Source of the DNA: Leptotrichia buccalis C-1013-b
GTDB taxonomy: Bacteria > Fusobacteriota > Fusobacteriia > Fusobacteriales > Leptotrichiaceae
DNA length: 64,000 bases
Direction: 5' to 3'
Assembly (NCBI RefSeq): GCF_000023905.1
Contig: NC_013192.1
Location: 1,054,001 to 1,118,000 of the forward strand
The translations under genes and the position numbers were made by a program. The notes beneath the pieces are model-generated. The model searched no databases. It saw only the letters and a program-made list of their open reading frames with translations, and was not told the origin of the DNA. Below are positions 2,648 through 36,310 of this stretch, in pieces (the first letter of the stretch is position 1; the number at the start of each line of letters is the position of its first letter).

Positions 2648-2648
2648 T

Positions 2649-3299
2649 CTATCTTTCCTTTTCTTTATTTTTATAATTTTTTTTATTCTGATTACCTTTA
2701 ATATTTTCTTTGATTTCTTCTCTTTTTAGAACTTTGCTTAAGATGTCTCCTCTATCTATTAATACGAATTTTTCTTCATTACTTTTAGATATTTTTGTTG
2801 TAAATAACACTTTATTTGCTGATAATTCTTTTTGTGCGGCTACAAAGTTTTTAAATTCTAGTCCTGTTTTTTCTCTGACTGATTTTGAGTCAAGGTATGC
2901 TAAGTTTCCTAAATTTTCTTTGTATGTATTGTAAATTAATTTTGCGTTATCTGATAACGTTGAAAGCTTTTCTCCCTTCACTTTTTCTGTTTCTTTTATT
3001 TTATTCGCTGCTTCTTCTAATTTTTTTTCATAGTTATCTTTAAATTCAAGTGATTTATCTTTATTGGTAAAATATTTTATTTTATGAGCTTCAAATATAG
3101 AACCATCATAATTTATTTTTTCTTCTGTTGAATGATGAAAAAATATCTTATTATCCTGTACTAATTCCTTAAATGCTTCATTAAACTTTTCTTCTTCTTT
3201 TATTCCTAGCTTTTCCATTATCTGATTTCTGCTTAATGTAGTGTATCCACCTTCATTTTTTGTTCTTTCTTCTAAAAAATTCATAATTTTTTCTTTCAT
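2649..3299 (-). CDS. Hypothetical protein inside the T4SS operon, possible winged-helix
   Basis: A 216-residue, highly charged soluble protein that I do not recognise. The first 60 residues (a helix, a 'TTLSRNQIMEKLGI' segment, then a helix) read like a winged-helix or replication-initiator fold. A second similar segment near residues 130-160 ('LDSKSVREKTGLEFKNFVAA') suggests a duplicated domain. The tail is Lys/Glu/Asn-rich. It lies between VirB3 and VirB4 and abuts VirB4. It could be an element-specific regulator or a T4SS accessory protein; the fold is inferred from pattern only. Confidence 0.55.
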   Translation of the reverse strand: MKEKIMNFLEERTKNEGGYTTLSRNQIMEKLGIKEEEKFNEAFKELVQDNKIFFHHSTEEKINYDGSIFEAHKIKYFTNKDKSLEFKDNYEKKLEEAANKIKETEKVKGEKLSTLSDNAKLIYNTYKENLGNLAYLDSKSVREKTGLEFKNFVAAQKELSANKVLFTTKISKSNEEKFVLIDRGDILSKVLKREEIKENIKGNQNKKNYKNKEKER

Positions 3300-3335
3300 T
3301 TCAATTATTTCCCTTTCAATATTTTTTCTTTTCGC

Positions 3336-3575
3336 TTAAGGATTTAAATATCTTTCAGTTTTATAATGCTCCATTATCAGTTCCAATGTCATTGAATCCC
3401 TTACTGACATAACTGCACACAGAATATATATTGTTCCTGCTGGTATAAAAATTATCCAATGCCTGAATATTAAAAATATGATTCCTGTGAATAACACTAG
3501 CGATATAAAAATTTTATATGGCAGTCCCATTATCATCTTTACATCCAGTAAAGACTTATAAACCTTCAGCTTCAT
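3336..3575 (-). CDS. virB3: VirB3/TrbD-like inner-membrane protein
   Basis: A 79-residue protein with two adjacent hydrophobic segments (about residues 22-55), preceded by a short basic N-terminus and followed by a charged tail. This is the size and topology of VirB3/TrbD, the small inner-membrane subunit that anchors VirB4. Its start overlaps the last 20 bases of the VirB11 gene, indicating translational coupling. The call rests on size, topology and place in the operon. Confidence 0.7.
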   Translation of the reverse strand: MKLKVYKSLLDVKMIMGLPYKIFISLVLFTGIIFLIFRHWIIFIPAGTIYILCAVMSVRDSMTLELIMEHYKTERYLNP

Positions 3576-4563
3576 ATCCTACCTCCTCAATTTCATATTC
3601 TTTTGTCTTTTTGTTAAAACCATTCACTTTGATTATCTTATTTACCTTTCTTACAGTTTTACCATTTTCAGTTATTCTTATGATATTTACAATTACATCT
3701 ACGGAACGCCCTATAAGTGGCTGTCTTGGATTCCTGTCAACTTCCATTAATAGTTCTTCCAGTCTTTCCAAAGTTTCTTCTGCACCATCCGAATGGACTG
3801 TTGTAAATCCTCCACTATGACCAGTATTCCAGTTTTTAAGTATCTCCTCAGCTTCTTCTCCATATCTAAGTTCTCCTTGAATAATTCTATCAGGTCTGTG
3901 TCTAAGTGCATCTTTTGATAATTCCAATGCAGAAACATCTTCAGTTACAAAAACTCTTAACACATTTTCCTTATCACAAATAATTTCTTCAACTTCTTCA
4001 ATAATGTATATTCTTTCAACAGTATTCCTAATTCTGTCAACTTGCTTTAAATAATCAACAAGAGCATTAGTAAATGTTGTCTTTCCTGTACCAGTTCCAC
4101 CCGATACAACTATATTCTTTTTACTTAAAATGGCTTCCGTAAGAAAATTTTTCTGAAATTCTGTAATTGAACCCATTGCTAAATAGTCATCAAGCGTAAA
4201 TATTTTTTTAGGTCTTTTCCTTATTGTAAATATTGGAATCCCTTTAGTAATTCCTTTTGCAGCTCCCTGAAATCTGTCAGAATTTGGCAAATTTCCAGAA
4301 AGTCTTGGATTTTTTTCAGAAATTATCTTTGAGTTGTATGAAGCCAATACTTGAATAATTTTATATCCTTCCATCTCATTCAGATATGTATTTGTCTTAT
4401 ACATTCCCCTTTCATATGATTCCACCCATACATATCCATCGGGATTTAGCATTATTTCAGTAATATCGTCATCTTCCATATATTCTTTCAGTGCTGACAA
4501 CCTTTCATTTACAAAATCTATCTGTGTTTGCTTTTGCAGTTCATATTTTTCACTTTCTGTCAT
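3556..4563 (-). CDS. virB11: VirB11/TrbB-type secretion ATPase
   Basis: A 335-residue hexameric traffic ATPase of the type II/IV secretion family that works at the cytoplasmic base of the channel. Walker A (SGGTGTGKTT) lies near residue 154. The Asp box/Walker B region contains 'IQGELRYGEEA', and the His box is 'GHSGGFTTVHSDG'; all are diagnostic. The length matches TrbB/VirB11. The start ATG overlaps the TGA stop of the coiled-coil gene upstream (ATGA), so the two are coupled. The frame is intact. Confidence 0.93.
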   Translation of the reverse strand: MTESEKYELQKQTQIDFVNERLSALKEYMEDDDITEIMLNPDGYVWVESYERGMYKTNTYLNEMEGYKIIQVLASYNSKIISEKNPRLSGNLPNSDRFQGAAKGITKGIPIFTIRKRPKKIFTLDDYLAMGSITEFQKNFLTEAILSKKNIVVSGGTGTGKTTFTNALVDYLKQVDRIRNTVERIYIIEEVEEIICDKENVLRVFVTEDVSALELSKDALRHRPDRIIQGELRYGEEAEEILKNWNTGHSGGFTTVHSDGAEETLERLEELLMEVDRNPRQPLIGRSVDVIVNIIRITENGKTVRKVNKIIKVNGFNKKTKEYEIEEVGYEAEGL

Positions 4564-4847
4564 AATACTTTAGCCAATTCCTTCATTTTTTTAGTAGCTT
4601 CATCATTACTTGGACTTTCAATTATGATTTTCAGAAGCTTGTTTTCTACACCTGATTTTTCTAAAATTTCTCTTAAGATAGCTGTATTTTCCTGTTCAAT
4701 TTTTTCAATTTCCTTTTGAGAATTAACTATTATTTTCTCCAGTTTGGCAATTTTTTCTTTATTTCTTTTTATTCTTTCAGTATAATTTTTTTCTCTAGCT
4801 TTTCTTCTTTTCTTTACTATTTCATCTGAACTGTTAATTGTCTCCAT
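4560..4847 (-). CDS. Small coiled-coil protein between VirD4 and VirB11
   Basis: A 95-residue Lys/Glu-rich protein predicted as one long coiled coil (residues about 10-60) with a C-terminal helical segment. The start chosen is the ATG at 4845-4847 because a GGGGGAT ribosome site precedes it; an upstream in-frame ATG at 4910 would overlap VirD4 by 50 bases. The stop overlaps the VirB11 start. I do not recognise the family. Its place beside the coupling protein would fit an adaptor or relaxosome-accessory role, but that is inference. Confidence 0.6.
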   Translation of the reverse strand: METINSSDEIVKKRRKAREKNYTERIKRNKEKIAKLEKIIVNSQKEIEKIEQENTAILREILEKSGVENKLLKIIIESPSNDEATKKMKELAKVL

Positions 4848-4860
4848 ATATCCCCCTATC

Positions 4861-6891
4861 CTATTTTTCTGATTTATACTTTTTTCTTGCCTTTTCAATA
4901 ATTTTTTCATATTTTATATCATCGTAAAAATCTTCTTCTTTCATCCTAAATGTATGCTCATATTCATACATCCCCTTCATTGCTTCAAATATTACATATC
5001 CATCTTTAAAAAATACTGGCTGGTGCTGCGTTCTTTTTAACAGTTCAGGATATTCGTAGTAATAGAGCTTATCTAATAATAAAGGTTTTTTATATCCCGT
5101 AATTACAACTGCTTTTCTGTCAGGCAGCAGTCTTATTTCTGAAGGACTTAATAAATCCTTTCCCTGCTCTGAAACATTTCCTCCCCCTTTTAGCCCAATA
5201 TTTCTACTTTTTACCCTGATTGTTTCTTTACCAAGTGTCTTTGAAATATAGTCAGGCGCAGCTTCATCGTTTGGTCTACCAAATACTTGAATTTGACATC
5301 CATTCAACACCTCTTTCCCCTGTTTATCGTATGTTGAATTTAACTGATCAAGTCCCTGAAATATTCCAACCATCTTTATTCCAAATCCTGCATAGTATCC
5401 CAAGCCTTTTACAAGAGGTTTCATCCTGCCATAAGCATTCAGTTCATCCATTAAAAATATTATGTTGAAATTTTTCTTGCTTAAACTTTCCATTAATAAA
5501 TTTGTCAGCTGAATATACATTATCCGTACTAATGGAGCTAATAAATCTATATCTTTTGGTTTTATTACAAAATATAAATCCACAGGCTTATCACTATTAA
5601 CCAAGTCCAATGCCCTAAAATCAGACTTTCCTATATTTTTTACGACCGAAGGAATTTCAAATACCTGTAATTTAGTCTTTGCTGTTGATGTGATAGACTT
5701 AAATGTATTTTCTCCTGTATTTTGTAATAAATATCCAAACTGTTTTGCAACAAAGGGGTGCAATCCTTTGTTTAATGCTTTAATTGATTCATCATCAGTA
5801 TATATTTTCCTAAGCCTTTCAACTGTTTTTTTCTTTAGAATAAAATCTTTTGACATTTCATCCTCGTATTCATCTTCTTCCATAGGCTTTCCAAGATATT
5901 TTGCAAACATTCTATACAAAGAATTTTCAGTATTAGTGATTATTGATATTACATCGTTTAGTGAAACTCTAACATCTGTTATATCAGGATCTTCTTCAGG
6001 ACGATTGCTTACTTCTCTGTAATGAACATAACCAGTTAAAGTAGAAATTGTATCTTTTGCACTGTCTCCCCAAAACGGATCCTTGCTCTCATCTTCCCCA
6101 ACAATCATTGTTCCAATTATTCTGCAATCTTCAATCTCATAATTTGTTCCATATCTTACTTCTGATAAAAAGTTATAGCTATTTGAAAGTTCACTCATTG
6201 GTTCAAATTTTAATATTCTATGTTTTAGTATCTTTGCTCTGTACCAACTTGTAAGTTCGTAATTTTCCTTTTTTATGTCAGAAATAAAAGTTGACCTTTT
6301 TTTTAATCCTGCAACAAGGCTTGGAATAATGTATCCTACACCCTTTCCTCCTCTTGTTGGCAAAAATAGGGCAATATGTATCATTGACGTATCATAAAGC
6401 AATTTTAATTTCCCTGATAAAGTTTTTACATATCCAATAACAAAACCATTTTCATTGCCGCTTAAAAAATCTACATCTGACGGTTTTTTCTTATTTTTCT
6501 TCAAATCATCATATGTTCCAAATTCAGCTTCTCCGTGTGATTTTAGTTTCTTTTTTTTCCAGTATGGCATTGTTAGAATAATTAATGATCCAACCAAAAG
6601 AGAGCATATACCTAACTGAAACTGTGAAGTTAATCTAGGAGTTTTTTTCATTATCATTTCCCAATTTCCAGATGGAAAATACATATACTGATTCTTTTTC
6701 CCAATAATTACTGGTTTTATTAATCTACGTATTTTTGCAAAAGTTGCATAGTTATTAACTTTTTCCAGTTCTTCCATATAGTTTGTTGATATTACCATTA
6801 AACCTGTTATATTTACCAAAATGAACATTATTATTGAAAAAATCCATTTTACAGGCTTCGTATTTTTAAGCGGCTTGTATTTTTTATCCAT
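4861..6891 (-). CDS. virD4: VirD4/TraG-type coupling protein
   Basis: A 676-residue inner-membrane ATPase that docks the relaxase-DNA complex to the secretion channel. Two N-terminal membrane segments (about residues 14-35 and 90-108) are followed by the Walker A variant PTRGGKGVG near residue 180, characteristic of the VirD4/TraG family, and a Walker B region 'IIFLMDELNAYG' near residue 484. The C-terminal part contains the usual 'GYKKPLLLDKLYYYEYPE'-type tail. It starts two bases after the VirB10 stop. No disruption is seen. Confidence 0.95.
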   Translation of the reverse strand: MDKKYKPLKNTKPVKWIFSIIMFILVNITGLMVISTNYMEELEKVNNYATFAKIRRLIKPVIIGKKNQYMYFPSGNWEMIMKKTPRLTSQFQLGICSLLVGSLIILTMPYWKKKKLKSHGEAEFGTYDDLKKNKKKPSDVDFLSGNENGFVIGYVKTLSGKLKLLYDTSMIHIALFLPTRGGKGVGYIIPSLVAGLKKRSTFISDIKKENYELTSWYRAKILKHRILKFEPMSELSNSYNFLSEVRYGTNYEIEDCRIIGTMIVGEDESKDPFWGDSAKDTISTLTGYVHYREVSNRPEEDPDITDVRVSLNDVISIITNTENSLYRMFAKYLGKPMEEDEYEDEMSKDFILKKKTVERLRKIYTDDESIKALNKGLHPFVAKQFGYLLQNTGENTFKSITSTAKTKLQVFEIPSVVKNIGKSDFRALDLVNSDKPVDLYFVIKPKDIDLLAPLVRIMYIQLTNLLMESLSKKNFNIIFLMDELNAYGRMKPLVKGLGYYAGFGIKMVGIFQGLDQLNSTYDKQGKEVLNGCQIQVFGRPNDEAAPDYISKTLGKETIRVKSRNIGLKGGGNVSEQGKDLLSPSEIRLLPDRKAVVITGYKKPLLLDKLYYYEYPELLKRTQHQPVFFKDGYVIFEAMKGMYEYEHTFRMKEEDFYDDIKYEKIIEKARKKYKSEK

Positions 6892-6893
6892 AA

Positions 6894-8243
6894 TTATTTC
6901 CTATATGGAGATAAAATTATATCCTTGCTTACAAAGATATTAAATTTTTTACCTCTCTTTATTTCAATTGTAGGCTGTCTGTTTAAATCTTTTTCAATGA
7001 TTCTTTCACCGATACTTCTAATATTCTGTGCAGCATCTGAAACACCTGTACCAATATTCACTCTTGACCTGCTTCCAGTCTCAATATTTACATTTAGACC
7101 TTCAAGTGATCCTGAAGCTATATTTATAGCAGAGGATAGTAACACACTTCTCATAAGTTTCCAGAAATGGTTGTTAGTTTTTCCTTTCAATCCTGCATTA
7201 CCTAACAAATCAACTCCCTGCATATTATCAAGCACAAGTGTTGAGCCATTTGGAAATACTAGTCTTTGCCATATCAATAAAACTCTATTCTGTCCATACG
7301 TTATACTGCTATCATATTTCCCAATTATTTTTGTACCCATAGGAATCAAAATATTTTTTCCAGTACGGTAGTCATAGACATTTTCTCTAACTTGAGCAAT
7401 CACATCTCCCGGTAAATCAGAATTAATTGCTGTTACAAGAACGGCTGGAATAAAGCTCCCTGTCTTTAACTCATATTTCCCTATTGCAGGATTTTTTAAA
7501 TTAGTCGAATAGAAGCTGTCCTGTTTTTGTTTCAGGAATAAGGACTTTGACTTTTGTTTATTCTGATCTGTGTCATTTTCATTTTGCTGTTGTGTATTTT
7601 GTGAAGCTGGTTGCTGTTCCTGATATTGTTCTGGTACTTGTGGAGTTTGTGTTGAAACTCCTTTATCAAATCCTATTGAGGATTTTCTCCATTCCTTATA
7701 TTTCTCTGAAGGAGCTACAGAAGTAGCTGAAGTATTAGTATTTTCATTTTCAGAAACATTAGAAAATGATGGAGGAGAAGTTGAAGCTCCATAACTTGAA
7801 TCAAAATTATCGTTATTGTAATCTGAACCTAATTGAGAATCATATTGTGATAAGTTTGGCGTTCCCGTTTTATCAGATGCTGTATTTATATTTTCTGTTC
7901 CAGACTGTGCTATGGTTTCAGAAACTTGAGGATTTTTATTTGCCTGAGTATTTACGGCATCATTTATATCCAGTTCCGTTCCTGTCGATATTGAATCTAC
8001 TTTTTCCTGTTCATTTGACTTCATATTTTTTTTTACCTGATTTGCAAAATATATGCTTGCAAAAATTAAGCCTGAAATTATACAAATTAGAATAATGACT
8101 TTTTTCTTATCAAAAAATTCTTCTATTGTTATTTTTGAATTTTTTATTGTTCCGTTTCCTTCATCTTCAAGCGATATTTCCTCTTCCTTCTGCTCCGTAA
8201 AATCGTCTTCAGAAGTTTCAAAATAGTCATTTTTATTTATCAA
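6894..8243 (-). CDS. virB10: VirB10/TrbI-like channel scaffold
   Basis: A 449-residue protein with a short acidic cytoplasmic head, one membrane helix (about residues 48-67), a long low-complexity Asn/Gln/Ser/Thr-rich periplasmic linker (about 80-235) and a C-terminal VirB10 domain. The C-terminal domain has the usual features 'GSFIPAVLVTAINSDLPG' and 'IPMGTKIIGKYDSS'. VirB10 spans both membranes and gates the channel. It lies between VirB9 and VirD4 with 2-17-base gaps. The linker is long but ordinary for this family. Confidence 0.93.
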   Translation of the reverse strand: MINKNDYFETSEDDFTEQKEEEISLEDEGNGTIKNSKITIEEFFDKKKVIILICIISGLIFASIYFANQVKKNMKSNEQEKVDSISTGTELDINDAVNTQANKNPQVSETIAQSGTENINTASDKTGTPNLSQYDSQLGSDYNNDNFDSSYGASTSPPSFSNVSENENTNTSATSVAPSEKYKEWRKSSIGFDKGVSTQTPQVPEQYQEQQPASQNTQQQNENDTDQNKQKSKSLFLKQKQDSFYSTNLKNPAIGKYELKTGSFIPAVLVTAINSDLPGDVIAQVRENVYDYRTGKNILIPMGTKIIGKYDSSITYGQNRVLLIWQRLVFPNGSTLVLDNMQGVDLLGNAGLKGKTNNHFWKLMRSVLLSSAINIASGSLEGLNVNIETGSRSRVNIGTGVSDAAQNIRSIGERIIEKDLNRQPTIEIKRGKKFNIFVSKDIILSPYRK

Positions 8244-25350: not shown

Positions 25351-25518
25351 ATTTAGAATAACTAATCAATATATAAAAATTGTAATAAATATTGAATAAG
25401 CAATGAATATCATAAAGCTAAAACAGAATACCTGAAGAGAATTTTTAATTTGATATTTGAACATACGATAGATTTAGAATCTAATCGGTAGGCATGTGTG
25501 CAAGGAGGCAAAATAAGA

Positions 25519-26952
25519 ATGAGCGGACCTAAGGTAAGTAAGGCAGAATTAGACAGAATGAGACAAATAGAAGTACAGAAAAAAAAGCAGATTATGTGTG
25601 AAATTAAAAATAAAGAGAGGATAGTTAATAATTTTGATATAAGAATTATTGATTCTGATATTCATGAAAAGTTAGCTAAAAAATTTGAAATTATAAGAAA
25701 AAGATATTATAAAAGTTTAAATGAATTATCGAAAAAATCTAAAATTAAGATGGAAATTGATAAATTAGAAAGAATAAATGAAAATTCTGAAACAATATTA
25801 AGGAAATTTGAGAAGAGTTACGATACGGTATTTAAAAAAATTGAAGAAAATATTAATAAATTAAGTCAAAATGAAATTCAAGAAATAAAAATGAAAATAA
25901 TTCATTTAGTTGATGAAATTCCAGAAAAAGGGGAAACGGAAACTGAGATCATTTTAAAAAATGTAGAAAAAAATATAAATAAACTGTTTAAAGTAAATAA
26001 TAAAGATGTTGGAAAAATAAAGAATATAGAATTTCAGGAAATAAAATTAGAAAAACATGATAGAAGAAAGATATTTAGCTTTTCTATGAAAAATAAAAAA
26101 GTGAAAAAAAATGAAGAAATATCTTTATCATCTTCCAAAGAAATAGAACAAAATACAGAAGAAATTTTAGATAAACTTTATGATTTTATGAAGTCAGATA
26201 AATATACTATAGAAGACAGGCAGAGATTTCTTTGTATGGAAAAAGAAATTCTAGATATAAAAGAAGAAAAAGGAATCACTTTAGAAATAAAAAAATTATT
26301 GATATTGGAAAAAAAAGAAAATATAGAAACAAATTTAAAAAGAATAGAGGTAAATAATAAAGAAGTAGAATTTTTATATGATGATTATTTGAAAGAGGCG
26401 TACTATATTAATCATCAGAATATAAAATCAATAAGAGAATTTTCATCAAAAGAAGATATAAAAAGTGAGATTGAAATTTTGAGAAAAAAAGGTGAAGAAA
26501 TATCTAAGAGAGAATATATTAAGGAACAGCTTGATGAAGTTATGTTAAAGCACGGATATAATGTAATTGATTCTGAACATATAGAAAAAGCAAAAGAAGA
26601 TAACAGATTACTTTATGAAATTGATGATTCTACAGGAATAGATGTTTTTTTATCAGAAACCCAGACTCAGATGGTAACATTAAAAATTGTTGGAATTGGA
26701 TTTGATGAAGAAATAACAGAAAGAGAATCAGACAGGTTGTACGAGGAGCAATGCAATTTTTGTTCCATGTTTCCAGAGCTAGTAGAAGAATTAAGAATAA
26801 GAGGAGTTATACTTAATGAAGTAAGATATAATGAGGCTAATAAAAAGTATAATTCAAAAATCAAAATTAAAAAGAATGATAAGACCAAAAATAAAAAGAA
26901 AAAATCAAGAGAAAATATTAATAATAAAAAATATAGAGAAATTAAGAGGTAA
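25519..26952 (+). CDS. SGPK-type coiled-coil protein, first gene of the kinase operon
   Basis: A 477-residue soluble, Lys/Glu-rich protein. The chosen ATG (25519) gives the N-terminus MSGPKVSKAELDRMR and has an AAGGAGG ribosome site. An opening 'MSGPK' followed by a basic coiled coil is something I associate with uncharacterised proteins of bacterial signalling clusters; no function is known to me. Residues 20-340 are predicted coiled coil. Residues about 360-440 form a small acidic globular domain ('YEIDDSTGIDVFLSETQTQMVTL' split by two strands). The tail is very basic. The stop lies six bases before the FHA gene. It could be a scaffold or substrate of the kinase. Confidence 0.7.
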   Translation: MSGPKVSKAELDRMRQIEVQKKKQIMCEIKNKERIVNNFDIRIIDSDIHEKLAKKFEIIRKRYYKSLNELSKKSKIKMEIDKLERINENSETILRKFEKSYDTVFKKIEENINKLSQNEIQEIKMKIIHLVDEIPEKGETETEIILKNVEKNINKLFKVNNKDVGKIKNIEFQEIKLEKHDRRKIFSFSMKNKKVKKNEEISLSSSKEIEQNTEEILDKLYDFMKSDKYTIEDRQRFLCMEKEILDIKEEKGITLEIKKLLILEKKENIETNLKRIEVNNKEVEFLYDDYLKEAYYINHQNIKSIREFSSKEDIKSEIEILRKKGEEISKREYIKEQLDEVMLKHGYNVIDSEHIEKAKEDNRLLYEIDDSTGIDVFLSETQTQMVTLKIVGIGFDEEITERESDRLYEEQCNFCSMFPELVEELRIRGVILNEVRYNEANKKYNSKIKIKKNDKTKNKKKKSRENINNKKYREIKR

Positions 26953-26958
26953 ATAAAA

Positions 26959-27663
26959 ATGAAATGTCAATATTGTGGTTCAGAAATTGAAGATACAGAT
27001 AAGGGATGTCCTATTTGTTGTGACACGAATTTAACTGAAGAAGAAACTGTAAAAGGAAAAGTTGAGAAAGAAAATGAAAAAACAAACGAAGAAGGGTTAG
27101 AAAATGATGAATCTTCAAATAAAAAAGAGAAATGGATAGCTGAATGCATGGAAGGGCATAAAACAGAAATAGACAAAGATGACAAGGAATTTTATTGTGA
27201 AGAATGTGAAGAAAATTATATAATAAGAGATGACGGAATATGTAAAAAATATCCAAAGAATCAAGCAACAGATGTGAAAGATGATCTAAATTCAGACGAA
27301 AAAACAAATATTACAAATGAAAGAGCAGTATTAAGCGAAAAACAGAAAAACGAAGAATTAATTTCTTTAATTTGGAAAAATAATAAAAATGAAGTTATTA
27401 AAATACCTAAAAAAGGTGGAACTATTGGAAGAGACGGAGATTACGGCTCAAGTTTATTTAATAGATATTATATGAATACAATATCTAGACAGCACATCAA
27501 AATAGAATTCAAAGGTGGAGACTGGGTAATTTCTCATCTCAGTAAAGTAAATGATACAGAAATAAACGGAAAAAAACTGGAACATGATTCTTTTCTAATT
27601 TTAAAAAATAATGATGAAATAACACTTGCTAAAAAGATTTCTTTCAGAGTGGAAATTAAATAA
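26959..27663 (+). CDS. Zinc-ribbon and FHA-domain protein
   Basis: A 234-residue protein with three parts. Residues 1-25 hold a zinc ribbon (CQYCG...CPICC). Residues about 58-95 hold a second Cys/His cluster ('CMEGHK', 'CEECEENY'). Residues about 145-234 are an FHA domain with the hallmark 'GGTIGRDGDYG', 'SRQHIKIEF' and 'NDTEINGKKL' motifs that bind phosphothreonine. FHA proteins read the marks made by Ser/Thr kinases. The kinase gene of this operon carries an array of threonine repeats, an obvious ligand candidate. It starts six bases after the coiled-coil gene and abuts the radical SAM gene. Confidence 0.88.
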   Translation: MKCQYCGSEIEDTDKGCPICCDTNLTEEETVKGKVEKENEKTNEEGLENDESSNKKEKWIAECMEGHKTEIDKDDKEFYCEECEENYIIRDDGICKKYPKNQATDVKDDLNSDEKTNITNERAVLSEKQKNEELISLIWKNNKNEVIKIPKKGGTIGRDGDYGSSLFNRYYMNTISRQHIKIEFKGGDWVISHLSKVNDTEINGKKLEHDSFLILKNNDEITLAKKISFRVEIK

Positions 27664-28242
27664 ATGTATATTGACAGAATACTTTATCCGATTCATACTT
27701 TAGGTCCTGGAAATCGAGCCGTTATTTGGACGAAAGGGTGCTCAAAAGGGTGTAAAAATTGTTCTAACCCCGAATTATGGCATATAGGAAAAGCAGCAAA
27801 GAGCAGAAGTGTTAAGGAATTATTTCAAATTATATTAAATATAAGCAGAGAAAATCGAATAGATGGTATAACTTTTACTGGTGGAGATCCGATAGAGCAA
27901 TTTGATGAACTGATTGAGTTTATTAAGTTGCTTAAAGAAATAACAAATGATATTTTGGTTTATACAGGAGATTATTTTAAAGATTTAAGTAAAAATAGAC
28001 AGGAAAAAATCAAAAAAAATATTTCTGTCTTAATTGATGGACCATATATACATGAATTAAATTTTAAATATGTAAATTTAAGAGGGTCAAAAAATCAAAA
28101 TATTATATACTTTAATAAAAAATTGAAATATAAATATAAGAAATATATGAAAAAAGGCAGAATGATACAGAATATAATTATGGGAGAAAAAATAATATCT
28201 GTAGGAATACACGATAGGCAGGAGGAAAGTAACAGTGGATAA
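27664..28242 (+). CDS. Radical SAM activase-like protein (NrdG type)
   Basis: A 192-residue minimal radical SAM protein. The cluster motif CSKGCKNC (CxxxCxxC) lies near residue 26 in the sequence 'VIWTKGCSKGCKNCSNPELW', and 'TFTGGDPIEQF' near residue 76 is the SAM-binding GGE/GGD-type motif. It resembles activating enzymes such as NrdG, which generate a glycyl radical on a partner. No glycyl-radical enzyme lies nearby, so the substrate is unknown. It starts at the base after the FHA stop and overlaps the next gene by 8 bases, so it belongs to this operon. Confidence 0.85.
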   Translation: MYIDRILYPIHTLGPGNRAVIWTKGCSKGCKNCSNPELWHIGKAAKSRSVKELFQIILNISRENRIDGITFTGGDPIEQFDELIEFIKLLKEITNDILVYTGDYFKDLSKNRQEKIKKNISVLIDGPYIHELNFKYVNLRGSKNQNIIYFNKKLKYKYKKYMKKGRMIQNIIMGEKIISVGIHDRQEESNSG

Positions 28243-30067
28243 AAGACCAAAGTGGCAAAAAGAACTTGAAAGTTTTAAGGGAATAAAATCTACTTTTATA
28301 ATTGAAGGAAATATAAATGATATATACCCTTATTATTTGGATGAAAATAGTGTTAATTATTTAGATTTAGATTTTCTTTTAACTCAAATGCTTAAAATTG
28401 ATGAAGAAAGTAAAGATAATGATAAATTAGAATATGATTTTGTATTCTGTAATCCAGTTTTAGGATTTTACAATAAAAGAATTCACACTAATGTAGCTAA
28501 TGTTTTGAGAGATTTCGATAAATCTGGTAATAATATTTTTAAAAAAGAAAAACCGAATTACATAGTAGATGATATTGAAAAATTTTCAGTTATTGTTAAA
28601 GAGGCGATAACAAGTAAAAAAGAAAAACCCGTTGCAGTAATTATCAATTTTGCAGCAAGATACATATCTTCACCCACTTCATTAGATACAAATGAAAATA
28701 ATATGTTTATAAATCTATTTGAAGCTTCAATGAACGCAAAATCAGTTAAAGGTTATTCAAATACTTTGATATTAGTAGTTGAAAAGTTTAACGACCTTCC
28801 TTCCTGGTTTTATTATAATAATCCTAATGTTAGAACTATAACGATACCTAATCCTGATAAGAAAATAAGGCTTAATTATATAGAAAAAAATTATAAAAAT
28901 GAATTAGAAAATAATATAAAAATTAAGAGCAAATTTATTGATAATACAGAAGGCTTAAAAAATAGAGAATTGAAAGAATTAAAAAATCTTTATAAAAGAT
29001 ATAATAGAAAAGACTCTGATTATACGTTACTGGATGCTTTAACGATGTATAAGTATGGTATCAAGGAAAATATGTGGGAAACAATAGATGAAGAAACAGT
29101 AAATAATCTTGAAAATAGTTTAGAAGAGAGAGTAAAAGGGCAGGATAGGGCGGTTAAAAAGGTAAGTTCGGTTATAAAAAGAGCAGTTACAGGAATGTCA
29201 GGGTTACAACATTCATCAAATGGAAATAAACCTAAAGGAATTTTGTTTTTTGCAGGTCCTACAGGAACAGGTAAAACAGAGCTTACAAAAGCATTGGCAG
29301 AAGTGCTTTTTGGAGATGAAAATAACTGTATAAGATTTGATATGAGTGAATATTCAGAATCTCATTCAGATCAAAAATTATTTGGAGCTCCACCAGGATA
29401 TGTAGGATATGAAGCTGGAGGACAATTAACAAACGCAGTAAAAGAAAAGCCTTTTTCGATACTACTTTTTGATGAAATAGAAAAAGCTCATCCTTCGATA
29501 ATGGATAAATTTCTTCAAATTCTTGAAGATGGAAGAATGACAGATGGACAAGGAAACACAGTATATTTCTCTGAATCATTGATAATTTTCACTTCAAATT
29601 TAGGGATAACAAAAAAAACAATAGATTCTTCTGGAAATGAAAGAAGAGAACAGTTGGTAAGCATAGATGAAACTTATGAAAGTATGGAAAATAAAGTTAT
29701 AAATGGAATAAAAGCTCATTTTAAACCAGAAGTAGTTAATAGAATAGGAAATAATATAGTTGTATTTGATTTTATAAGAGATGAAGTATCTCAATTAATT
29801 GTAAAATCACAAATAAAGAAAATAAATGAAAATATAAAAAGATTAAAAAAAATAGATATAGAAATTAGTCAAGAAACGTTAGAATACTATTATAAATTAT
29901 CAAAAGAAAAAAATGTACTTGAAATGGGAGGAAGAGGAATAGGAAATATGATTGAAGAAAAATATATAAATGAGTTATCTAACTATATATTTGATTCGAG
30001 AAATGAAAAAGGTAAAATAATTATTTATGTTGAAAATGAAAAAATAAAGTTTAAAAAAGGAGAATAA
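28235..30067 (+). CDS. ClpB-like AAA+ ATPase with a degenerate first half
   Basis: A 610-residue protein. The C-terminal half is a complete ClpA/B D2-type AAA+ domain: Walker A GPTGTGKT near residue 340, pore loop GYVGYE near 388, Walker B LLFDEIEKAH near 410, sensor 1 'FTSNLG' near 450 and the arginine finger in 'FKPEVVNRIG' near 497, then the C-terminal small domain. The N-terminal 270 residues resemble an AAA+ fold in outline ('FIIEGNINDIYPYY', 'VAVIINFAARYI') but have no Walker A, so it is not a normal D1. There is no ClpB middle domain. GTG start with GGAGG ahead. Such machines unfold or remodel proteins. Confidence 0.85.
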   Translation: MDKRPKWQKELESFKGIKSTFIIEGNINDIYPYYLDENSVNYLDLDFLLTQMLKIDEESKDNDKLEYDFVFCNPVLGFYNKRIHTNVANVLRDFDKSGNNIFKKEKPNYIVDDIEKFSVIVKEAITSKKEKPVAVIINFAARYISSPTSLDTNENNMFINLFEASMNAKSVKGYSNTLILVVEKFNDLPSWFYYNNPNVRTITIPNPDKKIRLNYIEKNYKNELENNIKIKSKFIDNTEGLKNRELKELKNLYKRYNRKDSDYTLLDALTMYKYGIKENMWETIDEETVNNLENSLEERVKGQDRAVKKVSSVIKRAVTGMSGLQHSSNGNKPKGILFFAGPTGTGKTELTKALAEVLFGDENNCIRFDMSEYSESHSDQKLFGAPPGYVGYEAGGQLTNAVKEKPFSILLFDEIEKAHPSIMDKFLQILEDGRMTDGQGNTVYFSESLIIFTSNLGITKKTIDSSGNERREQLVSIDETYESMENKVINGIKAHFKPEVVNRIGNNIVVFDFIRDEVSQLIVKSQIKKINENIKRLKKIDIEISQETLEYYYKLSKEKNVLEMGGRGIGNMIEEKYINELSNYIFDSRNEKGKIIIYVENEKIKFKKGE

Positions 30068-30072
30068 TCTTT

Positions 30073-30828
30073 ATGTTTAAATATTGCTCAAGAAACGATA
30101 TTGGTGTTTTATACGGTATTAATGATGATAAATTTATGATTAATGATGTTATTGTAGAAACTGGAGATTATAAAGGTGAAGCTGGAAATTATATAAGTGC
30201 TGTATTATGTGATGGAGTAGGTGGACAATTAGAAGGTGACAGAGCCGCTTTAGAAACTCTAAAAAATCTAAAAGAAATAATAAAAGAAGATGTTGCAAAA
30301 GAAGAAATTATTGAGAAAGTAAAAGAAACTAATGATTTAATAAGAAAGCTTCAAAAAGAGGAAAATAAAGAAAATGGACTGAAAACTACATTAGTTGGGA
30401 TTTATGCAAATCAAGATGTTTTTATATATTATAATCTTGGAGACAGCAGGGCTTACCGATATAGAAAAGGTTATTTTCAAAGGTTGACAAGAGATGATTC
30501 AAAAATACAAGATATGCTGGATAGGGAAATTATAACAGAGGAAGAAGCGATGAATCATCCTGAAAAAAATATAATCAATAAATGTATCGGATATTCAGAT
30601 GAATGTGAGCTTAATATCTATTCTTCAAATATTGGATTAATACCTGATGATATTATATTTTTATGTTCAGATGGGGTTACAGATGTTATTGATGACGATA
30701 CATTGAAATCAATTTTTGATAAAAAAGGTTCAATAGAAGAAAGCTTGGAAGAAATACATTCTCTTAGTCTAAAAAATGGAAGTAAGGATAATATAAGCTT
30801 AATTATAATCAAAAAGGAGAACCAATAA
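30073..30828 (+). CDS. PP2C-type protein phosphatase
   Basis: A 251-residue metal-dependent Ser/Thr phosphatase. The metal-binding motifs are 'AVLCDGVGGQLEGD' near residue 50, 'YYNLGDSRAYRY' near 118, 'FLCSDGVTDVID' near 197 and 'KDNISLIII' near the C-terminus; these are the PP2C signature Asp residues. It is the natural antagonist of the kinase encoded one base later. It starts five bases after the AAA+ stop, so it is translated from the same mRNA. Confidence 0.93.
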   Translation: MFKYCSRNDIGVLYGINDDKFMINDVIVETGDYKGEAGNYISAVLCDGVGGQLEGDRAALETLKNLKEIIKEDVAKEEIIEKVKETNDLIRKLQKEENKENGLKTTLVGIYANQDVFIYYNLGDSRAYRYRKGYFQRLTRDDSKIQDMLDREIITEEEAMNHPEKNIINKCIGYSDECELNIYSSNIGLIPDDIIFLCSDGVTDVIDDDTLKSIFDKKGSIEESLEEIHSLSLKNGSKDNISLIIIKKENQ

Positions 30829-30829
30829 A

Positions 30830-33800
30830 ATGAGTGATAATAACAGAATACCAACAATGCCACAAAATGAAACTATTGAGAGAAGTGCAACAGTACCACA
30901 AAATGGAACTATTGAAAGAAGCGCAACAGTACCACAGAATGAAAACATTGAAAGAAATTCAACAGTGCCGCAAAATATAGATGCTGAAAGAGAATCTACG
31001 GTGCCACAAAATGATTTTAATAATATAAGAAATGAAGAAATAGATTTAGATGGAGAAAAAACTTATATTTCTGATAATGGACGTTTAACTTTAAAAATAA
31101 AAGATACAGATGAAATAAAAGTAAAAAGTGGAGAATCAAGACTTTTTAAAAATAAAGTTTATAATAATGAGGGAAAAGAAGTAGAAGTACTAATAAAAAT
31201 TCTTAAAAATATAGATATAGAATCTGATGCTAAAAAATTAGAGAATAGAAAAAAGATTCTTAAGTTAGTATATAAAAAAGGAAAAGAAGTAGAGAAAAAT
31301 AATTTAGCTAGAGTTATATCTTATGGAAAAGTCATTACAGAAAAAAATCATGAATATTTTGCAGAAGTTTATCGATATTATTCAGGTGGAGATTTGTTTA
31401 ATAAAGCACCTTTAAAATATGAAGAACTAGAAAAAAATGTAATTCCTTCACTACTTAAAGCTTTGAGATATCTACATAGCCATAATATAGTTCATAGAGA
31501 TATAAAACCTGAAAATATTTATATTGATGATAAAGGGAAAATATACTTAGGAGATTTTGGAATAGCACGTTATATAGAAAGTAATATAGATTATGATGAA
31601 AAAAAATTTGGAACTTTAGGATATGCTGCACCAGAGTTATTACTTCCTAATACAGGAAGAGTTAAAAAAGAATCTGATTATTATTCATTAGGACAGACAT
31701 TGTATACTTTATTTACAAAAAAATTAATGTATGAGTCTGTTAAAGATAAAAAATTACTTAATGATGATATGATGAGTGATAAATATTATGGATTGTCAAG
31801 ATTAAATGAACATAAGTTATTTGAAGCTTTAATAAGAGGGCTGTTAAAATATTCTCCTGCAGATAGATTTAATGATAAACATATAGAAAGATTTTTAAAG
31901 GGAGATAATACTTTAAAAAGAGAAGTAAAAATGGAAGAAGAGGGTAATTTTGATTTTCCTTTAAGGATCTATGGAAAAACTCTTTGGTCTAAAAATGAAA
32001 TGTATGACTTCTTAATTCAAAATAAAGATAAAGCAGACGAGATATTAAATAATGAGTTTCTTTCGCAAAATTTTGAAAAAAATAATATGCTGTATGATGC
32101 AAAAAAAATGTCAGATATAGAAAGATTATATTTAACTGGAGATAATTTCGAGAAAAAATATCAACTTTTTGAATTATATAAATTTTTAAAAGATGAATAT
32201 ATATTTGTATGGGGAAATGAAGAAATAAAAAACTATAAACAAATTCCCTTTATTCCACATCAAGAGTTAAAACGTCTTCTTCAAAGAGGAGCTATACAAG
32301 AATTTTTAACAAAATCAGAATTTGATACTAAATTCATAGAAAGACTTGAAGAAATCAAGAATTATAAAAGTATACTAATAGCTTTTATATTAATAATTTG
32401 TTTTGATCCTGATAATAATGGAAAAAATGTAAAAGAATATACATATCGAAGAAAAGATTTTAATGATTTAATCAAAGAATGGATTAATAATAAAAATGAG
32501 GCATTGACACCATTATTAGCTTTATTGTATATTAATGGATATGATGTGGATATAAATGAAAATAGCTTTAATATGTTGAAATTTTTAATGGCACTTGAGA
32601 AAGAAGCAAAAGAAGATGAAGTCAAATTAAAAATAAGGGAAAAATTTTTAGAAAGAAACATAAACAATATTAATTACAAATATAACAAATTAAAAACCGT
32701 AATAAATGACATTAATAGCTCTAAATATGAAGCAACTGGTTTAGAATCACAAGAAATATTAGATAATATTTGTAATTGCCAAATTTTTCTAGAAAAAATG
32801 GATATAAACGAAATAATGAGAACCATTAATAATTTTGAAAATAAGTATCAAGAATTTGAAAGAAGATTTGAAAATAACCCATATAGTGTAATAATGAAAT
32901 CTTATCCTGAAGATGTAATTGTAACAAGACATTATAGCAAATATCCCCAAAATATAGAATTAAGAAAATACAATGAAGATTTTAAAAAAGAAGTCTCTGA
33001 AAAAAAATTATCATTGAAAAATTTAACAAAATATCTGGGAAATGTCAGAATAGCACCATTCTATTTAGCTTCGATAATATCATTCATTTTAGGGTATGTC
33101 TTTAGTATAAATAATTTGTATGCTAATATTGAAAATGTGGGAATAAGAGATATTCTTCCAACATTTCAGTATTTATTTTATGGAATAGGAGTATATTTTA
33201 TAATTAAAGCTGTAACTTTTACAATATTACAGATGAGTACAGATTATAAAGTCATTGAAAGAGAATATGATATTCTTTTTGAGAGAACTTTTGGAAATGA
33301 TTATGAAAAAAATATAGATCGAATATCTGATTTAATTCATAGACAAGCACAAGGAAAATTTGAGGAAGATTATTCTGAAGCTGAGAAAAAATTATATGAA
33401 TTAGCTAAAAAGTATGGTCAATCTGTCGATAATTATAAAAAAATAAGAAAAATAATAGAAAAAATACAGCATGTACTTCCAGTGTTATCTATGACGTCAA
33501 TATTGTTTTTTACGTTTAAGAATCTTGATATTTTTGCTAATGAGTATTTCTTCTTTAAAATGTACTGTTATCTTCTATTTCTTGCAACAATATATATATT
33601 TGCAATAGAGACGCACATAGACACTTACTTTTCATATTCAGTAAAAATATGGTCAACATTATCAATAATTTCAATAATTGGAGTCTATACTTATAACCGT
33701 TCAATTGAATACACTTTAAACTCTTTAATTCCTTGCGGAATAGCAGTAGTACTTTTTGCGATGCTATGGAAGAATATTGAAAAAATTATTGAATCTATTG

Positions 33801-34150
33801 ATACAAGTACTATAAAAGGTGTATTATTTTACATTATGTTAATTCCTGGAATTTTAGTTCCGCTTAGTTTACTAACTACGTCTCAACAAATAGGATGGTT
33901 TTATTTTTCTTTATTATTAGCAGTGCCAGCTGCGATTGGAATGTTTTTAAACAGTGGTAATCTTTTTTCAGGATATGTTTTATATAAAATACCATTTGCA
34001 TTATTGGGATATTCTTTAATAGGAATGACTCAAACTTCGATGTTTAGTTTAACGGGAATTTTCAATGGATTTATAGTACTTCTTTTAGGAGATGTCTTAG
34101 TAGTGATTGTTCTGATGATTCTGTTTGGAGTAATTGCATCAATCTTTTAA
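30830..34150 (+). CDS. Membrane Ser/Thr protein kinase with Thr-repeat N-terminus
   Basis: An 1106-residue kinase. Residues 6-61 hold five 12-residue repeats with Thr at exactly 9, 21, 33, 45 and 57, each followed by V/M-P-Q-N. The Hanks-type kinase domain covers about 85-345: Lys in 'VEVLIKILKN', HRDIKPEN near 221, GDFGIAR near 242 and 'GTLGYAAPELL' near 261. Then comes an approximately 390-residue helical region with no recognised domain, a first pair of membrane helices near 745-795, a soluble loop and about seven more membrane helices from 880 to the end. The Thr repeats look like autophosphorylation sites for the FHA protein. It starts one base after the phosphatase stop. Confidence 0.92.
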   Translation: MSDNNRIPTMPQNETIERSATVPQNGTIERSATVPQNENIERNSTVPQNIDAERESTVPQNDFNNIRNEEIDLDGEKTYISDNGRLTLKIKDTDEIKVKSGESRLFKNKVYNNEGKEVEVLIKILKNIDIESDAKKLENRKKILKLVYKKGKEVEKNNLARVISYGKVITEKNHEYFAEVYRYYSGGDLFNKAPLKYEELEKNVIPSLLKALRYLHSHNIVHRDIKPENIYIDDKGKIYLGDFGIARYIESNIDYDEKKFGTLGYAAPELLLPNTGRVKKESDYYSLGQTLYTLFTKKLMYESVKDKKLLNDDMMSDKYYGLSRLNEHKLFEALIRGLLKYSPADRFNDKHIERFLKGDNTLKREVKMEEEGNFDFPLRIYGKTLWSKNEMYDFLIQNKDKADEILNNEFLSQNFEKNNMLYDAKKMSDIERLYLTGDNFEKKYQLFELYKFLKDEYIFVWGNEEIKNYKQIPFIPHQELKRLLQRGAIQEFLTKSEFDTKFIERLEEIKNYKSILIAFILIICFDPDNNGKNVKEYTYRRKDFNDLIKEWINNKNEALTPLLALLYINGYDVDINENSFNMLKFLMALEKEAKEDEVKLKIREKFLERNINNINYKYNKLKTVINDINSSKYEATGLESQEILDNICNCQIFLEKMDINEIMRTINNFENKYQEFERRFENNPYSVIMKSYPEDVIVTRHYSKYPQNIELRKYNEDFKKEVSEKKLSLKNLTKYLGNVRIAPFYLASIISFILGYVFSINNLYANIENVGIRDILPTFQYLFYGIGVYFIIKAVTFTILQMSTDYKVIEREYDILFERTFGNDYEKNIDRISDLIHRQAQGKFEEDYSEAEKKLYELAKKYGQSVDNYKKIRKIIEKIQHVLPVLSMTSILFFTFKNLDIFANEYFFFKMYCYLLFLATIYIFAIETHIDTYFSYSVKIWSTLSIISIIGVYTYNRSIEYTLNSLIPCGIAVVLFAMLWKNIEKIIESIDTSTIKGVLFYIMLIPGILVPLSLLTTSQQIGWFYFSLLLAVPAAIGMFLNSGNLFSGYVLYKIPFALLGYSLIGMTQTSMFSLTGIFNGFIVLLLGDVLVVIVLMILFGVIASIF

Positions 34151-34189
34151 ATAATCTAAAAAATTTTTATTAAATTTTGAAAAATATAG

Positions 34190-34237
34190 TGGAAAAGATA
34201 TAGTAACGAATATTTCTATACTTTTCCATAATTTTTT
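34190..34237 (+). terminator. Terminator of the kinase operon
   Basis: TGGAAAAGATATAG/CTATACTTTTCCA hairpin (13 pairs with one bulge) followed by TAATTTTTTT, 40 bases after the kinase stop. Confidence 0.85.
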
Positions 34238-35532: not shown

Positions 35533-35555
35533 TTCTATTTTAAATGGGTTCGAGT
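35533..35555 (-). repeat. 23-bp dispersed repeat, copy 1
   Basis: On the minus strand ACTCGAACCCATTTAAAATAGAA (shown as 12 + 11: ACTCGAACCCAT, TTAAAATAGAA). It matches 51725-51747 at 22 of 23 positions. It touches the end of the nucleotidyltransferase gene. Confidence 0.5.
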
Positions 35556-36310
35556 TATTTCAAAATTTTATAAAAATATTCATTCAAATTTTCCCAATTA
35601 TGTTTTTCATCGGTTATTTTATTGATATTTTCTTCCATTATTTCAAAGTTTTTTTCAATATATTCATTAAGAATTTCTATTTTTTCTGAATAATCCATTT
35701 CCAGCATTTGAATCTTTTTTTCCAATAGTTTTTCTATTTCCATTTTTACTTTTTCATCATTTTTCAGTTCTTCATTTAAAAGTTTTGAAAATTCCATTGG
35801 TGGATAAATCTTTTTATCAAGTATCCATTTTGTAGCAAGTAGCGAACGTAAAACATAAAAATATTTTTTTATTCTTACTTTATCTCCTTTTAAATATTCA
35901 CGATAGTTCGTTTTTGCCATATTCAAGTAATGATACAAATTTTTTTTAGGCGAAAAATAGTGTGGCAATAATTTTTTTAATTCTTCAAATTCTTTCGTTT
36001 TTTTATATACAATTGGAGAATTACACCATTCAAGCAAAGCGGGATTTGTTTTATACAGTAATTTTAACGCCTTTTTTATATCCCAACCACTAATGTCCAG
36101 TGTTTCATCAAGCTGCCATTCTATTACATCCCGAATTTCATTTAGTTTCAAATATTCCTTAGTTTCCCTCACATAAATAAATCTCACATCATAATCGCTA
36201 TCTGGCGAAGCAAATCCCCAAGCACGACTTCCAGATTCCACAGCAAGAATAATTTTTACATTTTCTATTTTTTCAATTTCTTCTAATTTTTGTTTTATAA
36301 TTTTATTCAT
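35555..36310 (-). CDS. Predicted nucleotidyltransferase (RlaP/YcgL type)
   Basis: A 251-residue polymerase-beta-type nucleotidyltransferase. The 'ESGSRAWGFASPDSDYDVRFIYV' region (about residues 25-45) carries the GS...DxD catalytic motif of the RlaP family (PF10127), and 'LLEWCNSPIVYK' near 90 is also characteristic. The C-terminal half is helical. The family is predicted to modify RNA or nucleotides, but its substrate is unknown. It is a single gene with no close partner. Confidence 0.85.
   Translation of the reverse strand: MNKIIKQKLEEIEKIENVKIILAVESGSRAWGFASPDSDYDVRFIYVRETKEYLKLNEIRDVIEWQLDETLDISGWDIKKALKLLYKTNPALLEWCNSPIVYKKTKEFEELKKLLPHYFSPKKNLYHYLNMAKTNYREYLKGDKVRIKKYFYVLRSLLATKWILDKKIYPPMEFSKLLNEELKNDEKVKMEIEKLLEKKIQMLEMDYSEKIEILNEYIEKNFEIMEENINKITDEKHNWENLNEYFYKILK

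Follow-up and report, generated by a model that had tools for sequence, protein, structure and literature searches.

What kind of system brings the writer, the reader and the eraser of threonine phosphorylation together with an unfoldase and a radical enzyme? This question is raised by an operon of Leptotrichia buccalis C-1013-b (Fusobacteriota), found within 64,000 nucleotides (contig NC_013192.1, positions 1,054,001 to 1,118,000 of the forward strand) of the AT-rich, 2.47 Mb host genome. We refer to this whole stretch as the window and count positions from its first letter. Six open reading frames (ORFs), all on the + strand, form one compact operon at 25519-34150. They encode a coiled-coil protein that begins with MSGPK (the SGPK protein), an FHA protein, a radical SAM enzyme, an AAA+ protein with two AAA+ domains (D1 and D2), a PP2C phosphatase and a Ser/Thr kinase. 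As judged from its relatives, the operon is one instance of a widespread, sporadically inherited module that comes in several architectures and occurs in at least four bacterial phyla. The features are listed below with their basis (AF2, AlphaFold2; pLDDT, predicted local distance difference test).

25502-25508, +, ribosome-binding site AAGGAGG of the SGPK gene, before its ATG (sequence)
25519-26952, +, SGPK protein, 477 aa: coiled coil (8-344) and C-terminal alpha/beta domain (ORF, alignments, AF2)
25519-25533, +, codons of the almost invariant N-terminal M-S-G-P-K, disordered in the model (alignments, AF2)
26551-26808, +, conserved C-terminal alpha/beta domain of the SGPK protein, residues 345-430 (AF2 pLDDT mostly 85-92; GY...C...G columns conserved)
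26959-27663, +, zinc-ribbon FHA protein, 234 aa (ORF, Pfam)
27421-27627, +, FHA domain, residues 155-223, with the phosphothreonine-binding R, S, H and N conserved (profile match, alignment)
27664-28242, +, NrdG/PflA-like radical SAM enzyme, 192 aa (Pfam, NCBIfam, alignment, PDB comparison)
27739-27762, +, CxxxCxxC 4Fe-4S motif (C26, C30, C33) of the radical SAM enzyme (invariant in alignment)
28235-30067, +, double-AAA+ unfoldase-like protein, 610 aa (Pfam, NCBIfam, alignment)
28235-29089, +, degenerate AAA+ D1 with Cdc48/Vps4/PAN-like fold, without Walker A GKT and Walker B DE (AF2, Foldseek)
29090-30064, +, active ClpB/ClpC-type D2: Walker A GPTGTGKT (29255-29278), Walker B LLFDEIEKAH, pore loop GYVG (profiles, alignment)
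30073-30828, +, PP2C (Stp1-like) Ser/Thr phosphatase, 251 aa (Pfam, NCBIfam)
30830-34150, +, Hanks-type Ser/Thr kinase, 1106 aa (ORF, Pfam)
30854-31009, +, kinase N-tail: five T-[MV]-P-Q motifs (T9, T21, T33, T45, T57) with a 12-residue period, predicted FHA-docking phosphothreonines (sequence, statistics)
31154-31885, +, kinase catalytic domain, HRD/DFG/APE intact (Pfam, alignment)
33044-34147, +, membrane-spanning C-terminal region of the kinase, about 8 hydrophobic segments (membrane-segment prediction)
34189-34229, +, terminator hairpin followed by a T-run (folding)

A preliminary description of this DNA had proposed a single transcription unit with gaps of at most 6 bases, one 8-base overlap and a strong terminator, and the ORF positions bear this out. 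The SGPK and FHA genes are 6 bases apart, the FHA gene directly abuts the radical SAM gene (gap 0), the radical SAM and AAA+ genes overlap by 8 bases, and 5 and 1 bases separate the AAA+ from the PP2C gene and the PP2C from the kinase gene. The terminator hairpin folds at -15.8 kcal/mol (z = -4.5), and none of 200 shuffled sequences was equally stable. The gene assignments made in that description hold, and five of them agree with Pfam and NCBIfam domain matches: Pkinase for the kinase (114 bits), FHA for the FHA protein (39 bits), Stp1 of NCBIfam for the PP2C protein (169 bits), radical SAM/Fer4_12 for the radical SAM enzyme (107 bits) and AAA_2 for the AAA+ protein (183 bits). For the zinc-ribbon FHA reader, the FHA part stood, while the zinc ribbon scored under the Pfam cut-off with two CxxC pairs visible. 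Writer, reader and eraser do lie together with an unfoldase and a radical enzyme.

Such a gathering could be a chance cluster of unrelated housekeeping-type genes, and the rarity of the operon within the genus fits that idea: the SGPK protein occurs in 2 of 13 same-genus genomes, the window's genome included. The other copy (locus L089, genome G006) comprises six genes in the window's order at a different genomic place. There, a TnpB-type insertion sequence splits the AAA+ gene (L089 11320-13300), so this sister operon may be decaying.

Beyond the genus, we first scanned GTDB genomes and plasmids; relatives turned up in Clostridia, in alpha- and betaproteobacteria and in Actinomycetota. We then analysed about 1,500 genomes in a blind census baited solely with the AAA+ N-terminal domain. 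This domain was found in 3 of 98 genomes of a phylum sample, 6 of 391 Clostridia, 1 of 337 Alphaproteobacteria, 6 of 369 Gammaproteobacteria (GTDB sense) and 7 of 297 Actinomycetes, that is, in 0.3-3% of genomes in five classes. These counts include each sample's centre genome, which was picked for having the domain; 18 genomes remain without the centres. When the flanks of the 18 census loci were read, a radical SAM enzyme lay near the AAA+ gene in 15, an FHA protein and a kinase in 11 each, the SGPK protein in 10 and PP2C in 5. The same models applied to 71 control loci around ordinary ClpB/ClpC-type ATPases gave 4, 0, 3, 0 and 2, respectively (P=7e-11 for radical SAM, 9e-10 for FHA, 2e-7 for the kinase, 9e-9 for SGPK and 3e-3 for PP2C). 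Thus, the same parts recur across several phyla far above the control loci, and the chance explanation is refuted; we give it practically no credence. The preliminary description had named neighbours that are not co-inherited as grounds for its rejection; on this check the parts recur together in at least four phyla. No match to the AAA+ N-terminal domain or the SGPK protein was found among 160 viral loci, and none in phage records. Carriage by E. coli was considered and dropped: among the matches listed, all were clpK-type D2 matches.

Six genes in the window's order were found within the genus and in Clostridia (L089, L127, L129 and L090; the last is on an Aristaeella lactis plasmid and has an extra DUF6273 gene ahead of the kinase gene). 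Two loci of Actinomycetes (L138, L139) have all six parts, arranged differently. Other relatives are built differently. The alpha- and betaproteobacterial architecture starts with the AAA+ protein and the radical SAM enzyme, continues with a giant protein of about 2,100 residues and ends with an MSGPK protein. The giant protein is a fusion of a zinc ribbon, a kinase, DUF4011, a superfamily 1 (SF1) helicase and an MTES_1575 nuclease, as seen from the domains of L013; L014, L017 and L131 likewise match the helicase and kinase models. Aristaeella adds to the six parts a DUF4011 helicase-nuclease, encoded upstream, and one more kinase. A kinase-less architecture (L095-L099, L130) comprises an SF1 helicase, usually a PIN-nuclease protein, a coiled-coil protein, the AAA+ protein and the radical SAM enzyme; its carriers are gamma-, beta- and alphaproteobacterial plasmids and one Clostridia genome. 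This plasmid version looks like an unnamed defence system. The partner helicases match PADLOC models PDC-S37 (1308 bits) and Hhe (545 bits), or Mokosh-like MkoA (340 bits). No PADLOC model recognised the SGPK protein, and matches to the AAA+ and radical SAM proteins were confined to their generic parts.

Because the kinase-less architectures keep them, coiled coil, AAA+ protein and radical SAM enzyme are, on these comparisons, the constant part; the phospho-switch is the major variant, and helicase-nucleases join in several lineages. The gene neighbourhoods demonstrate that the core of SGPK protein, AAA+ protein with dead D1 and active D2, and NrdG/PflA-like radical SAM enzyme recurs, and that kinase, FHA/zinc-ribbon protein and PP2C are co-inherited with it.

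The kinase-less version was also seen on the Acinetobacter plasmid pNDM1_010055, where a further pair of AAA and radical SAM genes follows. On the Geminocystis plasmid pGM01 (L093), a cyanobacterial MSGSPK coiled-coil protein, an AAA+ protein and a radical SAM enzyme are surrounded by several small P-loop (GxxGxGKT-type) proteins. At six loci the AAA+ protein stands without detected partners (L009-L011, L133-L135). The first three are from Clostridia, two of them rumen-derived by name; their AAA+ proteins are close relatives (43-44% identity), and a gene of about 247 aa follows in L009 and L011.

The N-terminal domain of the AAA+ protein looked unclassified by sequence. Its AF2 model (pLDDT 82.7, predicted template modelling score 0.81) was compared using Foldseek and resembled the AAA+ modules of Vps4 (E 8e-7), PAN (E 4e-6) and p97 (E 2e-5), all with probability 1.0. 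In the alignment, EGNINDIY and IINFAAR stand in the places of Walker A and Walker B. Since both motifs are lost on an AAA+ fold, we read D1 as dead; as predicted from sequence and model, the protein is a dead Cdc48-like D1 followed by an active ClpB-like D2 with a GYVG pore loop. The active-site motifs of D2 are intact, as are those of PP2C. The protein is no ClpB orthologue: TIGR03346 scored 284.5 bits, over D2 only, versus a cut-off of 1232, and D1 is degenerate. Identity with PDC-M37B/DolB of PADLOC was rejected as well, the match being to the generic D2 only.

An AAA+ protein of this type could also serve stress tolerance and proteostasis. Membrane stress would activate the kinase, the AAA+ protein would disaggregate or remodel proteins under phospho-control, and the helicase-nucleases seen elsewhere would be secondary recruitments. 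The ClpB/ClpC-type D2 with its pore loop is consistent with this, as are a kinase that spans the membrane here and in Actinomycetes and fusobacterial operons without a nuclease. However, a core proteostasis system would not usually be so rare and patchy (0.3-3% of genomes), travel on plasmids or have helicase-nuclease partners, as seen in Proteobacteria and Aristaeella, and it offers no obvious place for a radical SAM enzyme. We regard this explanation as unlikely, if far from negligible.

In the kinase, the only one of the six proteins with predicted membrane segments, the VAIK lysine (K123), HRD (222-224), DFG (242-244) and APE are intact and form invariant alignment columns. The phosphothreonine-site residues of the FHA domain (GR/S..H/N; R, S, H, N) are likewise intact and conserved almost throughout 14 aligned domains. 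Three more FHA-domain loci were noted in the window's genome (G000:C1 463862, 1011354 and 1027881).

FHA domains select phosphothreonine ligands by the residue at +3, and Rad53 FHA1 prefers pTxxD. The kinase N-tail ahead of the catalytic domain is unconserved as such and reads TMPQ-TVPQ-TVPQ-TVPQ-TVPQ in the window. Other tails carry TQRD five times (L139), TRLD/TQLD/TELD (L137), TRRD/THRD/TRRD (L136), TVRD/TRRD/TIRD (L132) or, in Aristaeella, TIFN/TVLN/TIIN, and the proteobacterial fusions have a single ET[IRV]ID. When 17 kinase tails were pooled, threonine was followed by D, N, Q or E at +3 in 50 cases versus 22.2 expected, and by Asp in 23 versus 7.1; none of 1000 within-tail shuffles reached either count. 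No other offset from -3 to +5 showed significant enrichment in these tails. Since this enrichment matches the +3 rule of FHA domains, the tail is predicted to be a cis-encoded FHA docking array, and docking of the FHA protein on it is probable. Three observations temper this prediction: the counts take in tandem repeats, which are non-independent, one Streptomyces tail (L016/L142) was omitted from the +3 test, and the tails of L127-L129 show little +3 pattern. Without the L139 tail, Asp stands at +3 in 18 of 86 threonines versus a background of 7.9%.

Adjacent kinase and PP2C genes, both motif-intact, also raise the possibility of a toxin-antitoxin pair, in which a toxic kinase is held by PP2C as antitoxin and the remaining genes tune toxicity. 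A precedent exists in the prophage-encoded kinase-kinase-phosphatase (KKP) module, where a PP2C-neutralised kinase provides antiphage defence via phosphorylation balance (PMC11341870). Yet PP2C is the least conserved partner (5/18), and AAA+ protein and radical SAM enzyme persist in the kinase-less loci, which makes these two the constant part. Such a pair is a quite unlikely account of the operon.

The SGPK protein had no family match in Pfam, NCBIfam or PADLOC. Its top conserved feature is MSGPK at residues 1-5, identical in all ten members of a first alignment, in which the proteins were 11-22% identical to the window protein except for the sister copy at 46%. Across relatives, the remainder of the protein has diverged to 10-25% identity. 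Relatives found later deviate (MSGSPK, MSGPS in L012, MSGFT in L129, and one clear loss). In the AF2 model the N-terminus is disordered and followed by a long coiled coil. The C-terminal alpha/beta domain is confidently predicted and gave no significant fold match in the PDB; FANCL (E 0.3) and RnlA (E 1.4) were not trusted. The radical SAM enzyme is closest to the pyruvate formate-lyase (PFL)-activating enzyme in the PDB and to NrdG in NCBIfam, and its CxxxCxxC motif is kept in all aligned relatives. An NrdG orthologue was rejected (TIGR02491 103.4 bits versus a cut-off of 126.1).

Could the radical SAM enzyme act on the SGPK protein? A connection between this enzyme and the SGPK tag is an attractive guess; that the enzyme does act on this protein is conceivable, though doubtful. 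In a peptide- or protein-modification pathway, it would mature the SGPK protein, possibly by a glycyl radical or a backbone change at Gly3, and AAA+ protein and phospho-switch would gate the product. An NrdG/PflA-type enzyme without a partner reductase in the operon and the disordered, nearly invariant N-terminal SGPK suit such a pathway. It is at odds with the kinase-less versions, which keep the enzyme without MSGPK, and with known glycyl radical enzymes, whose radical sits close to the C-terminus, embedded in RVxG[YF]. We consider a dedicated modification pathway improbable, while worth keeping in mind.

We slightly favour a conflict or stress module that is switched by phosphorylation and inherited sporadically. 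Its kinase, the C-terminal half of which is membrane-spanning here, would sense a trigger and increasingly autophosphorylate the repeated threonine motifs of its own N-tail. The FHA protein would then dock on the tail phosphothreonines by the +3 rule and bring the core machine to the kinase, and PP2C would reset the switch. The AAA+ motor would remodel a client, and the radical SAM enzyme would modify a protein, with the disordered N-terminal SGPK tag as best candidate. The output would most likely be abortive or directed against mobile elements, because the proteobacterial kinase is fused to a DUF4011 helicase and an MTES_1575 nuclease, and Aristaeella lactis encodes a helicase-nuclease next door. 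Patchiness, plasmid carriage and these partners in relatives make a defence or anti-mobile-element role plausible on balance. The function put forward in the preliminary description, phosphorylation-controlled protein remodelling or stress/defence, is likewise plausible. A more specific version, a new class of phospho-gated conflict system in which the radical SAM enzyme modifies the SGPK tag (possibly to a protein radical on Gly3), the dead-D1 AAA+ protein remodels the modified protein, and tail phosphothreonines and FHA protein time the process, is unlikely to hold in full.

Several findings weigh against the favoured module. PP2C turned up in just 5 of the 18 census loci, a count that the local model and contig ends may affect. 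No helicase or nuclease gene adjoins the fusobacterial operons, and neither G000 nor G006 has DUF4011. The window operon is surrounded by housekeeping genes instead of lying in a defence island, and comparison with relatives gave no clean empty site: they keep pepD-rnmV, followed by differing genes (tag, prfB and others). MSGPK deviates in L129 (MSGFT), L103 (MSHGQ) and L012 (MSGPS). Furthermore, kinase-less versions keep AAA+ protein and radical SAM enzyme with a coiled-coil protein that lacks MSGPK, so this motif may serve the kinase branch instead of the radical SAM enzyme.

How does the module relate to known systems? In agreement with the preliminary description, which knew of no operon with this content, the open-access literature searched, which leaves out most subscription journals, yielded no published system made up of these parts. 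The TerY-P triad consists of a vWA protein, a kinase and PP2C. It shares with the operon a kinase and PP2C as transferable signalling unit, but none of the six operon proteins has a vWA domain (0/6, Pfam), and FHA reader, AAA+ protein and radical SAM enzyme are added. As in KKP (PMC11341870), a Ser/Thr kinase adjoins PP2C; unlike KKP with its two kinases, the operon has PP2C, then one kinase, then the terminator, and a separate FHA protein. In the KKP paper, kinases fused to FHA or CSD are screened for, and no AAA+ or radical SAM protein is mentioned (PMC11341870). The vWA-MoxR/FtsH ternary conflict systems are centred on AAA+ NTPases, FHA domains occur in them sporadically, and one FtsH subtype has radical SAM as a gene of its own (Kaur et al. 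2020, PMC7159879), whereas the operon has no vWA, MoxR or FtsH match over the cut-off and its AAA+ protein combines a dead D1 with a ClpB-like D2.

Among defence systems, MADS provides the best PADLOC match of the kinase (MAD6, 131 bits), but the NCBIfam MAD6 score is 87.8 bits versus a cut-off of 460, and no other mad protein exceeds the generic AAA level in the operon. Mokosh, Hhe and PDC-S37 of PADLOC have an SF1 helicase, alone or accompanied by a kinase or nuclease, that resembles the partners in Proteobacteria and Aristaeella, and helicases of the Mokosh/Hhe kind were found in L013, L090 and L095. In contrast, the operon lacks an SF1 or DUF4011 helicase, and AAA+ protein, radical SAM enzyme and SGPK protein are foreign to those three systems. 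Dodola (DolB; PDC-M37B) also employs a ClpB-like ATPase, and PDC-M37 overlaps it, but the similarity is generic to D2 (70-90 bits), the N-domain differs and the operon has no DolA match. NrdG and the PFL-activating enzyme share the radical SAM subtype, but no reductase or lyase gene is present in the operon. Finally, the FHA protein differs from the Fha/PpkA/PppA proteins of type VI secretion (TagH-type score 25.8 bits versus 120.25), and no Tss domain occurs in the operon. We rate the module as one of the broad kind of phosphorylation-controlled conflict systems, with a core that is described in no source searched.

If this assignment is true, a widespread, unnamed bacterial module encodes writer, reader, eraser, docking sites and effector machine together, and bacterial threonine-phosphorylation signalling could be tested end to end within one operon. 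The +3 signature opens quick, cheap peptide-binding tests. That a nearly invariant SGPK tag occurs beside an enzyme of PflA/NrdG type raises a well-defined question of chemistry, and the helicase-nuclease versions offer a possible route to the target.

The operon is flanked by pepD and rnmV upstream and by rpsI and rplM downstream, the latter on the opposite strand. In another same-genus genome (G009, L145), a differing, accessory-looking gene of 295 aa directly follows rnmV where the window genome has the operon; the spot after rnmV may be an insertion hot spot. A conjugative element, marked by Type IV conjugation genes (VirB4/TrbE-like, VirD4/TraG-like and TrbI-like; 164-8243, - strand), lies about 17 kb upstream of the operon. 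Downstream, a perfect consensus sigma-70 promoter, TTGACA-17-TATAAT, lies upstream of rplM-rpsI (35241-35213, - strand), and a gene for an RlaP-family nucleotidyltransferase (RNA repair pathway) was found at 35555-36310 on the - strand.

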